From the NCBI RefSeq assembly GCF_000172635.2, contig NC_018632.1, positions 2,666,001-2,730,000 on the forward strand: 64,000 nucleotides of DNA, given 5' to 3'. Source of the stretch: Alteromonas macleodii ATCC 27126. Its GTDB lineage: Bacteria; Pseudomonadota; Gammaproteobacteria; Enterobacterales; Alteromonadaceae. Below are positions 31,658-34,757 of the stretch, piece after piece (within the stretch, counting starts at the first letter, position 1; every line of letters begins with the position of its first letter). A program made the position numbers and the translations under genes. Below the pieces are notes generated by a model. It was given only the letters and a program-made list of their open reading frames with translations, did no database searches and was not told the origin of the DNA.

Positions 31658-32083
31658 ATGATGAAAAGTAAACGCTGCCGAACGTTCAGCCGCTCATTTA
31701 ACCACGCAATACTAGTAATTTGTATAGCGGCATTTGCTTCAGGCTGTATGGTGATCTTGCCGACCTCTTCTATTTCCACCAACCAAGAACCTGAAAAAAT
31801 AGTTGAGCGCATTGAATACAATGCAAACCGATGCTGGTCCACACTGCATCAGCCAATCCATAGCGATATAGTCGTAAACACGTATACAATACAAAACGGC
31901 TACAAACTCACGGCCAGTCGTAAAGAAGGGAGCACCCCGCAATATCCTTTTTTACACGTCACCGTTACCCACTCAACCTACGGCAGCGAGGTATCTGTTC
32001 GAGAAGGAGAGTTTAACTTGGGCACAGACTTAAATTTAAGTGATGATGTAAATCGATGGATAAATGGCGACAATAGCTGCTAA
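31658..32083 (+). CDS. Hypothetical lipoprotein
   Basis: A 141-residue protein with an N-terminal basic stretch, a hydrophobic core (HAILVICIAAFASGC) and a lipobox ending in Cys30. The mature part is polar, with no recognised domain, and ends in a Cys. Two adjacent ATGs share the GAGGG upstream. Nothing in the neighbourhood suggests a role. Confidence 0.7.
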   Translation: MMKSKRCRTFSRSFNHAILVICIAAFASGCMVILPTSSISTNQEPEKIVERIEYNANRCWSTLHQPIHSDIVVNTYTIQNGYKLTASRKEGSTPQYPFLHVTVTHSTYGSEVSVREGEFNLGTDLNLSDDVNRWINGDNSC

Positions 32084-32102: not shown

Positions 32103-32537
32103 CTATTTTTCAGTAGTAGACAGAATAATACTCGTCTCACTATTAAGCACGCCTTTAACGCCGCGCACTTCTTTTAAAATGCCATCTAAGTGCGCGAGAC
32201 TTTCGGCGGTTATAACAATAAGTAAATCCCAATTTCCGTTTGTAGTATGAAACCGCTCAACACCATTCACCTGCCTAAGCTTACTAATAAGCTGTGTTGT
32301 ACTAAGCCCTTCAAGCTCGACTGACATAAGAGCTTTTATTTTGTCTGGTTGAAGCTGCTCGTTAACACGAATAGTAAAACCGTCGATCACCCCCGAATTT
32401 ACTAACCTGTCGATTCGTTTTTGCACCGTATTTCGCGATAACGAGAGGACTTCAGCTAGCACGGTTACAGGTGTTCGCGCATCGCGCTTCAATATATCGA
32501 GAAGCTCGCGATCTTTCGCATCTAAATCTACATACAT
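32103..32537 (-). CDS. Lrp/AsnC-family regulator
   Basis: A 144-residue feast/famine regulator. The helix-turn-helix (about 8-55) contains VTVLAEVLSLSRNTVQKRID. The RAM effector-binding domain occupies about 65-140. It is divergent from the CtlX-like/AstA fusion gene with a 213-bp gap. Members of this family commonly sense amino acids and control the catabolic gene next to them, so arginine, ornithine or citrulline is a reasonable effector; that is inference. Confidence 0.92.
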   Translation of the reverse strand: MYVDLDAKDRELLDILKRDARTPVTVLAEVLSLSRNTVQKRIDRLVNSGVIDGFTIRVNEQLQPDKIKALMSVELEGLSTTQLISKLRQVNGVERFHTTNGNWDLLIVITAESLAHLDGILKEVRGVKGVLNSETSIILSTTEK

Positions 32538-32750
32538 GGTCGTTTCCCCAATAGATAAACAAATCGTCGAGTCATTAACTCGTTCTCCAAGACTAATTAG
32601 CGAAAAGCATAATGATAAAACAATTGAGCAATATGCTTAAACTAAATAACAACTTGCAACACCTTGAGCATGGTTAAGTGAATTCGCCAGAGAATAAAAT
32701 ACACGCTCTTTTCAGTGGAAATATTTCAGCTAAGGGCTGTAGGACGTTAT

Positions 32751-34757
32751 ATGCAAGCCAGTCACATCAAAAACTCACGATCAACTACACCAAATTCCGT
32801 TTTAATGGTACGCCCCTGTGCCTTTCGCCCCAACGAACAAACAGCCAAAGACAATAGTTTTCAGAAGCCCCTTGTATCGACGGGAAGAAATAGAGCGGAA
32901 ATATCAAAGAATGCGTGTGCGGAATTTGATGAGATGGTTCGCACTTTACGTATGAACCACATAACGGTAGAGGTGTTTGAAACAGAAAGGAAAAACACGC
33001 CCGATGCCGTATTTCCAAATAATTGGTTAAGTACACATCCCAACGGTTTGCTTGTCACCTACCCTATGTACTGTGAAAACCGCCGAGCGGAGCGTCGTGA
33101 CGATATTGTCAGTTATCTGCAGCAACACTATATCGTACAGCAAGCTAAAGATTTATCTTTCCTTGAAGATGACGGAGATATTGTTGAAGGTACAGGGGCT
33201 ATGGTGATCGACCATGTAAACGCGCTAGCCTATGTTTGCCTATCCCAACGAGCCAATAAGAGAGCTGTAATATCGGCGTGTAAAGCTATTGGTTTAACGC
33301 CTATATGTTTTAGCGCCTTTGATACTGCTGGTACGGCGATTTACCACACCAACGTAATGATGTGTGTGGGCAGTGATTTTGCCATTGTTGCTACTAGCAT
33401 GATAGAAGAAAGCGACAAAAATGTGGTGCTTTCAACACTTAAGGAAACAGGTAAAAACGTCATCGAAATTAGCGAAGAACAAGTGAATAGTTTTGCCGGA
33501 AACTGCCTAGAGCTTTTGAATAGCAATGGAAAACGTTTATTGCTTATATCAGACACTGCTTTTAGTTCAATGAACGAAGAGCAACTAGCTTTACTACCCA
33601 ACGATCTTACTTTACTTCCCATCGCAGTGCCTACTATTGAAATGGGAGGAGGCTCCGTCCGCTGCATGGTCGCGGGTATTCACCTTGAGTGTAAAACGAT
33701 TGGCGCTAAACAAACTACGACTAATAACATCAGCTTTGACACCCGCGTGAGGCTAGCAAAAGGTGATGACTTGGAAGGCTTGCTTGCGTTAGCTGAAGCT
33801 GCATCGCCAGGTATGACAACCTTCCCACCGGATAGAGCAACGCTTGATAACAAATTAAAGCGTTCAATTAGAGAAGAACAAAAACTTATGCGTCAAGAGC
33901 GTCCAGACTACCTTTTGTTTGTATTGGAGGACCTTCGAACTGGCAAGCTTATTGGTACATCTGCAATTTTTGGTGAATTAGGAAAAGAGGACAGTTTTTA
34001 TAGTTACAAGCGAGAAAAAGTCGCACAGCGAAATAAATCACTAGGCGCACACTACACCCACGACATACTGCACCTAAGTCACCATTTTGAGGGGTACGCG
34101 GAAGTGGCATCACTCTACTTACTGCCTGAATACAGAAAACACTTCAACGGAAAACTACTTTCAAAAGTACGCTACCTTTTTATGGGTTTACATCAGCATG
34201 TATTTCCAAAGCAAGTCATGGCCGATCTACGAGGCTATGTAAATAAGGATGGGGAATCGCCTTTCTGGAATGCCGTCGGACGTCACTTTTTTCCTATGAC
34301 ATACGCTGAAGCGGATTTATATGGTGCCGTAAACGGAAATCAATTTATTGCTGATTTAATGCCCAAACTTCCACTGTATGTAAATATGTTACCCAAAGAG
34401 GCTCAGTTGGCTATTGGTAAACCACATAACGACGGCCAACCCGCTATGGCAATGCTAGAAAAAGAAGGGTTTAAATTCACGAACTACATCGATATTTTTG
34501 ATGGTGCGCCAAGTATGGAAGCTGAAGTTTCAAGCCTAAAAACTGTCAAATCAACAAGGCAAGTAAGAAAAAAAGTTTGCGAAGGTACGAAGCATGTCAC
34601 CGAGAGTAAAATGACGCTTGTCGCCACGTTGAGCCAGCCTTTTTATGCAATGATGGCAGAAACCGAAGAACAAGACGAAATAGCTGTTATCTCTCGCAAA
34701 ACAGCACAAGCATTAAACGTTAGCTCGGGAGATACCATCTTACTTTCAGATGTTTAG
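32751..34757 (+). CDS. Fusion of a CtlX-like amidinotransferase-fold hydrolase and arginine N-succinyltransferase
   Basis: A 668-residue single chain. The ATG at 32751 is chosen (AGGA 6 nt upstream); a GTG at 32715 is less likely. Residues 1-320 match the citrulline/arginine hydrolase family CtlX of the guanidine-modifying superfamily. Visible elements are FRPNEQTAKDNSFQ, Asp85 in DAVFPNNW, EDDGDIVEGTGAMV, the catalytic His199 in AIYHTNVMM, and Cys305 in GGGSVRCMVAGI. Residues from about 333 match AstA: RLAKGDDLEGLLALAEAASPG, YAEVASLYLLPEYRKHFNGK, KQVMADLRGYVNKDGESPFW, EKEGFKFTNYIDIFDGAPSM. AstA (about 340 aa) transfers succinyl from succinyl-CoA to arginine. The N-terminal part is not AstB, which has a different start and length. 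No astB, C, D or E lies near. The divergent Lrp-type gene probably regulates it. Confidence 0.88.
   Translation: MQASHIKNSRSTTPNSVLMVRPCAFRPNEQTAKDNSFQKPLVSTGRNRAEISKNACAEFDEMVRTLRMNHITVEVFETERKNTPDAVFPNNWLSTHPNGLLVTYPMYCENRRAERRDDIVSYLQQHYIVQQAKDLSFLEDDGDIVEGTGAMVIDHVNALAYVCLSQRANKRAVISACKAIGLTPICFSAFDTAGTAIYHTNVMMCVGSDFAIVATSMIEESDKNVVLSTLKETGKNVIEISEEQVNSFAGNCLELLNSNGKRLLLISDTAFSSMNEEQLALLPNDLTLLPIAVPTIEMGGGSVRCMVAGIHLECKTIGAKQTTTNNISFDTRVRLAKGDDLEGLLALAEAASPGMTTFPPDRATLDNKLKRSIREEQKLMRQERPDYLLFVLEDLRTGKLIGTSAIFGELGKEDSFYSYKREKVAQRNKSLGAHYTHDILHLSHHFEGYAEVASLYLLPEYRKHFNGKLLSKVRYLFMGLHQHVFPKQVMADLRGYVNKDGESPFWNAVGRHFFPMTYAEADLYGAVNGNQFIADLMPKLPLYVNMLPKEAQLAIGKPHNDGQPAMAMLEKEGFKFTNYIDIFDGAPSMEAEVSSLKTVKSTRQVRKKVCEGTKHVTESKMTLVATLSQPFYAMMAETEEQDEIAVISRKTAQALNVSSGDTILLSDV

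Follow-up and report, generated by a model that had tools for sequence, protein, structure and literature searches.

Why should a putative citrulline hydrolase and a succinyltransferase of arginine catabolism be encoded in one open reading frame (ORF)? The question is raised by a gene in a stretch of 64,000 nucleotides (the window) of the genome of Alteromonas macleodii ATCC 27126 (NC_018632.1, positions 2,666,001 to 2,730,000), which consists of one contig of 4.65 Mb. The ctlX-astA fusion gene (32751..34757; plus strand, like all of its features given below) was recognized from its ORF, matches to Pfam and NCBIfam models and homologs, and encodes 668 amino acids; an alternative GTG start 36 bases upstream of position 32751 would add 12 residues. 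The protein comprises a domain of the putative citrulline hydrolase CtlX (residues 15-311; 32793..33683), an interdomain linker (residues 312-331; 33684..33743) and a succinyltransferase domain of the AstA family (residues 332-664; 33744..34742). We consider it fairly probable that it is a bifunctional citrulline-catabolic enzyme, which would convert citrulline via ornithine to N2-succinylornithine in one chain and thus enter the arginine succinyltransferase (AST) pathway below AstB.

In a Pfam scan of the 668-residue protein at an E-value of 0.001 PF19420 (residues 25-311, 321.5 bits) and PF04958 (residues 332-664, 371.7 bits) were the only matches, and no C-terminal ornithine cyclodeaminase (OCD) domain was detected. 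An earlier note on the window had described one polypeptide of a hydrolase-like domain and AstA and had considered a stop or frameshift near 33725-33760; the DNA of the junction was inspected and its frame is continuous. Both Pfam domains are combined in nine of the 109 matches of a protein search (66-97% identity, one at 97%), for which candidates of 0.55-1.75 times the query length were used and only the 7998 sharing most words were scored. Three of these proteins (P0001, P0002 and P0004; 97%, 85% and 77% identical) are assigned to Alteromonas in their source records, and the source names of the fused proteins reflect one half or the other. The whole fusion was found in five of 59 genomes of the genus, including the genome of the window (69-100% identity); a search of 395 genomes of the family yielded the same five genomes only, among the matches listed. 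A small indel could join a gene pair like that of genome G009, described below, in which a few bases are shared by the two frames. However, the same fused frame in nine database proteins and five genomes, with the join at an identical position of the alignment, practically rules out a sequencing or assembly artefact.

The N-terminal half reaches 367.2 bits against NF046062, the CtlX equivalog model of NCBIfam (cut-off 334), and covers profile positions 1-299 of 299. According to Price et al. (2022; PMC9007349), CtlX is distinguished by having FPNN instead of FTRD and HTN instead of HLD, which the authors interpret as suiting an amide substrate such as citrulline; FPNN and HTN both occur in the fused protein, at residues 88-91 and 199-201. 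The FPNNW motif (residues 88-92; 33012..33026), in which Asn replaces the guanidine-binding Asp, is invariant from F88 to W92 in 22 of 22 aligned rows, and H199-T200-N201 (33345..33353) contains the catalytic His and a second Asn substitution. H199 and C305 (33663..33665) are invariant in all 22 aligned CtlX sequences, that of the window included. By its family, C305 is taken to be the nucleophilic Cys of this guanidine-modifying fold. When PDB sequences were searched with a CtlX profile, nothing useful was obtained, and FPNN could not be aligned by sequence to Asn71 of ArgZ. By its sequence the N-terminal half is a candidate CtlX-type citrulline hydrolase, and hydrolysis of arginine appears unlikely because Asn is found in FPNN and HTN where arginine-acting relatives have Asp. 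The citrulline/arginine hydrolysis proposed in the earlier note is thus narrowed to citrulline.

The C-terminal half exceeds the cut-off of TIGR03243, the arginine/ornithine succinyltransferase subfamily (347 bits, cut-off 284.35), and stays below those of the equivalog models TIGR03244 (AstA; 314.1 bits, cut-off 391) and TIGR03245 (AruF alpha subunit; 280 bits, cut-off 458.8). All 43 near-invariant AstA columns (at least 97% in 76 other rows, which exclude G739 and two AruF-like rows deviant at many of these columns) are kept in all nine fused domains. Both halves are intact in their key residues, as had been claimed. In an AstA tree of 88 sequences, the nine fused domains and the stand-alone protein P0111 (60% identical) are located inside a subfamily of 50 rows (support 100/99). 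This subfamily is separate from the canonical AstA of the host and from an AruF/AruG-like tandem pair, a label which rests on the tandem gene arrangement. The likely acceptors of the fused half include ornithine and not only arginine; the residues specific to CtlX-linked AstA are only Q426, Y518 and L596, with no clear meaning for the substrate. H559 (34425..34427) aligns with the conserved IGxxH His of canonical AstA, and we presume that it corresponds to H229 of Acinetobacter baumannii AstA, for which a catalytic role is predicted in PMC12375414. His occupies this position in the nine fused domains and P0111, and Asn in all of the 13 others of the subfamily that were compared, with 27 further rows outside the comparison. 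Among the sequences with Asn are those of G009, G714, G739 and g195, the last of which belongs to an astA-astB-astE row; the catalytic role proposed for the His may have to be reconsidered.

The ratio of nonsynonymous to synonymous substitution rates (dN/dS) is low in CtlX and AstA, which argues that both fused halves are under constraint. For CtlX it is 0.18 between the window and G024 and 0.12-0.30 in eight of ten pairs for which it was computable. For AstA it is 0.04-0.09 in three of ten pairs; in the remaining pairs of either domain synonymous sites are saturated. The comparison of the window with G024 gave 0.085 for AstA residues 332-600, and 0.43 was obtained for the last 68 residues of the protein. 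Second divergent AstA copies with 36-40% identity to the fused domain are present in other genomes of the genus, G100 (C14:94516-95505) and G185 (C52:59361-60338), and no CtlX or Lrp match was detected in the surrounding stretches examined.

In the host genome astC, astA and astD are located together, and astB (746 bits) and astE (351 bits, cut-off 306) elsewhere; the AST genes map to 384-388 kb, 1628 kb and 1824 kb of the genome, and the window spans 2666-2730 kb. The canonical AstA reaches 480.4 bits against TIGR03244 (cut-off 391). At the fusion locus the gene order is a divergent Lrp/AsnC-type gene, the fusion and a convergent cysS, and no ast gene was seen by eye among the ORFs at 26-42 kb of the window. 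With these neighbors and with the AST genes elsewhere, the fusion was rejected as a member of an AST cluster or the first gene of astCADBE, as the earlier note had surmised from the absence of astBCDE and the divergent Lrp-type regulator; the separate astA and astB which it had left to be checked are both encoded, along with astC, astD and astE. The host genome contains no match to the OCD family or to arginine deiminase (ADI; PF02274), the ornithine routes covered by the search, and a single PF19420 match, the fusion itself. Since astA to astE are all present and no OCD or ADI match was found, the AST pathway is an obvious outlet for ornithine. As the AST genes are dispersed and a separate canonical astA exists, the fusion would provide an additional entry into AST, and its AstA copy is free to specialize. 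Downstream of astD a gene for 268 amino acids (L143, 5647-6453) has no NCBIfam match and looks DUF1338-like.

CtlX and AstA are also paired as separate genes. In G009, which belongs to another genus (L086/L216), an Lrp-type gene, ctlX (44% identical; 406.3 bits against NF046062, cut-off 334) and astA (47%) form a row on one strand, in which astA, if begun at its ATG, overlaps the ctlX stop as ATGA; the same lrp-ctlX-astA row was found in a third genus (G714, L222). The ctlX loci analyzed here, from family and order and from genome contigs, are best matches to the CtlX of the window, for family and order among the matches listed, and not a random sample. Within about 1.5 kb of 60 distinct loci of family and order, Lrp-type genes occur at 30, OCD genes at 13 and AstA genes at three, namely the G024 fusion, G009 and G714. 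For 80 ctlX loci from genome contigs the numbers within 3 kb are 12 (Lrp), 13 (OCD) and zero (AstA), and AstA was absent anywhere in the fetched stretches of 4.8-17 kb. For control the same search was applied to 30 canonical astA loci from the family, of like size, and to 24 from the genus, and no Lrp, OCD or CtlX gene was found. The slot beside ctlX alternates between the ornithine-consuming OCD and AstA. This agrees with the report that ctlX and either ocd or aruFG are important for growth on citrulline and that the neighbor of ctlX is often ocd or aruG (PMC9007349), which argues for ornithine as the intermediate. In view of this published adjacency and the split rows, the fusion represents a gene pair of a type already known, joined into one frame. 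Fused and split forms group neither in the AstA tree, where their grouping was not rejected (p-AU 0.231), nor in a CtlX tree made by a quick method, and these trees are compatible with one origin or two of the ctlX-astA pairing.

Further architectures were noticed among the CtlX homologs. Many of P0014-P0069 are long forms of about 501-510 amino acids; in P0018 (501 amino acids), the only long form scanned, CtlX begins at residue 200 behind an N-terminal stretch with no Pfam match. P0099 and P0100 (452 and 443 amino acids) combine CtlX with GNAT acetyltransferase domains, located after CtlX in P0099, and are possibly another hydrolase-N-acyltransferase fusion. The OCD-CtlX protein P0070 was set aside as a parallel fusion; its OCD Pfam match ends at residue 232 and the next stretch is frameshift-like.

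From what was computed, namely the architecture, the conservation, the intact predicted catalytic residues and the gene context, we infer the two substrates, the sequence of the reactions and the regulation as follows. The CtlX half would hydrolyze citrulline to ornithine and carbamate, the latter decomposing to ammonia and CO2. Next, the AstA-type half tethered to it would transfer the succinyl group of succinyl-CoA to ornithine, and the N2-succinylornithine formed would be converted to glutamate and succinate by AstC, AstD and AstE, which are encoded elsewhere, bypassing AstB. In this manner the fusion would capture ornithine before ArgF returns it to citrulline, and the adjacent Lrp-type protein probably controls the fusion in response to an amino acid. 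That the two activities are linked in their chemistry, as the earlier note had held, is retained here in the form of ornithine as probable product of the CtlX half and likely acceptor of the AstA half. Its suggestion of a substrate channel is not: the linker is variable in the alignment, has a pLDDT below 50 at residues 317-327 and looks like a flexible tether in the predicted structure, in which no evidence of a channel between the CtlX and AstA domains was found, and a fixed channel was discarded as unsupported. Because the linker looks flexible, proximity would be expected rather than a closed tunnel.

Within the genus two stages of fusion loss were observed. G184 (L149/L175) has only the CtlX part (79%), and its frame stops just past this part and is followed by cysS; G168 (L174, 7035-7256) has only a stretch of 64 residues of the AstA end (84%). 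The remaining 52 genomes show AstA matches only. All five fusions and both remnants occupy the same site, upstream of the convergent cysS. An Lrp-type gene is found beside the fusion or remnant in G000 (the genome of the window), G024, G166, G158, G192 and G184, and none was found beside the G168 remnant.

Several observations weigh against a citrulline-catabolic fusion enzyme. An intact fusion is absent from 54 of the 59 genomes of the genus, and the tether is dispensable in G184, because CtlX is kept there with the AstA part gone. With a pTM of 0.53, the predicted structure does not support a fixed arrangement of the CtlX and AstA domains. The assignment of CtlX as a citrullinase is based on mutant fitness, and its authors state that biochemical proof is still needed (PMC9007349). 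Their data are complicated by the importance of argG and argH on citrulline, by that of ctlX also on ornithine and by possible polar effects. For the need on ornithine they suspect that CtlX counteracts the conversion of ornithine to citrulline and arginine (PMC9007349), and a succinyltransferase tethered to it would work in the same direction. Moreover, the AstA subfamily includes probable arginine enzymes, because in g195 (L217) a member is located upstream of astB (641 bits, cut-off 538) and astE (367 bits, cut-off 306) and, judged from these neighbors, probably acts on arginine. This astB-linked relative reaches 346.7 bits against TIGR03244 and thus also falls short of the cut-off of 391, so the shortfall of the fused half is uninformative on its acceptor. 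The astB linkage in g195 and the astA control loci cut both ways, and our estimate for the citrulline-catabolic enzyme is unchanged by them.

If the fused domain acted as the g195 enzyme probably does, the halves could work side by side, CtlX on citrulline to give ornithine and AstA mainly on arginine, as a combined arginine/citrulline entry enzyme of AST. The inclusion of the g195 member in the subfamily of the fused domain fits such an arrangement, as does the use of arginine and ornithine by AstA of Escherichia coli and Pseudomonas aeruginosa (PMC12375414). However, the astC-astA-astD row of the host already contains a canonical astA, and the pairing with CtlX, in a slot taken elsewhere by OCD, favors ornithine; we regard the arrangement as possible but doubtful, and arginine as acceptor, the assumption of the earlier note, has to be shared with ornithine. 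In the reverse order of steps, the AstA half would succinylate citrulline and the CtlX half would convert N2-succinylcitrulline to N2-succinylornithine, which would resemble the second half of the AstB reaction. The CtlX relatives (41-47% identity, six phyla) lack AstA in their flanks at all 80 loci, though, and G184 retains CtlX alone; CtlX therefore seems to act on its own, and the reverse order is very improbable. This sequence, in which AstA acylates citrulline and CtlX removes the carbamoyl group, was not found in the open-licence PMC literature. We hold it to be quite improbable that the fusion is a complete one-chain machine from citrulline to succinylornithine keeping ornithine from the biosynthetic ArgF or, in a bolder version, a route via N2-succinylcitrulline. 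The arginine sensor suggested earlier, i.e., a non-catalytic N-terminal domain which responds to arginine or citrulline and regulates the succinyltransferase, is favored by nothing beyond the existence of the fusion. With H199, C305, FPNN and HTN kept, strong constraint on CtlX, a score above the equivalog cut-off and retention of CtlX alone in G184, we regard it as extremely unlikely. The citrulline-catabolic enzyme with ornithine as intermediate is thus preferred.

The divergent regulator, whose presence had been noted before, is encoded on the minus strand at 32103..32537 (144 amino acids) and matches Lrp/AsnC models below their equivalog cut-offs. In the 213 bases between it and the fusion an imperfect inverted repeat (32605..32638) with arms of 15 bases, 80% complementary, was found; G024, G166 and G158 show a similar sequence, and we would guess that it is a candidate operator. 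When 32103-34757 of the window was compared with L177 of G166, the Lrp proteins were 100% identical and CtlX and AstA 78-79%, and the two halves diverged unequally at synonymous sites (0.46 vs. 0.77 of these sites); owing to these differences the locus looks like a recombination mosaic. Further upstream, at 31658-32083, a gene of 141 amino acids, lipoprotein-like by eye, has no NCBIfam match; it is present in G166 and G168, reduced to a 16-residue match in G158 and was not found in G024, G184 and G192.

A CtlX-AstA fusion was not found in the open-licence PMC literature, which does not cover subscription journals. The view that it is undescribed thus holds for the single polypeptide, not for the pairing of ctlX with an AstA-family gene, which is already in print (PMC9007349) and occurs as split rows in two genera; the fusion is a joined variant. 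CtlX is a widespread family, for which a natural succinyltransferase fusion predicts ornithine as intermediate and offers a coupled assay in one protein, and the remnants in G184 and G168 lend themselves to a comparison of citrulline utilization in marine Alteromonas.

Among known systems, the pairing of ctlX with aruG or ocd described by Price et al. (PMC9007349) involves the same two enzyme families and citrulline use via ornithine, but as separate proteins, and the fused AstA belongs to a subfamily other than the AruF/AruG-like tandem pair. The split rows of G009 and G714 have the same three adjacent gene types in the same bacterial family, but separate frames, Asn at the position of His559 in AstA and the Lrp gene on the same strand, which is divergent at the fusion. 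In Acinetobacter, AstO is an AstA paralog for ornithine with a divergent Lrp/AsnC regulator, AstR, in the presence of canonical AST genes, as in the fusion host (PMC12375414). Its use of ornithine was assigned by mutant growth, it is described as closest to the AstA of its own genus, and the available part of that paper mentions no CtlX; by analogy the fused AstA could specialize as AstO did for ornithine. The cyanobacterial AgrE/ArgZ (PMC8262935; PDB 6lrf, 6juy, 6juz) is an arginine dihydrolase fused to an ornithine cyclodeaminase and converts arginine to proline by OCD, whereas CtlX-AstA has Asn at the place of the guanidine-binding Asp and a succinyltransferase as its second domain. In both, a hydrolase of this fold is tied to an ornithine consumer, which suggests selection for holding on to ornithine.
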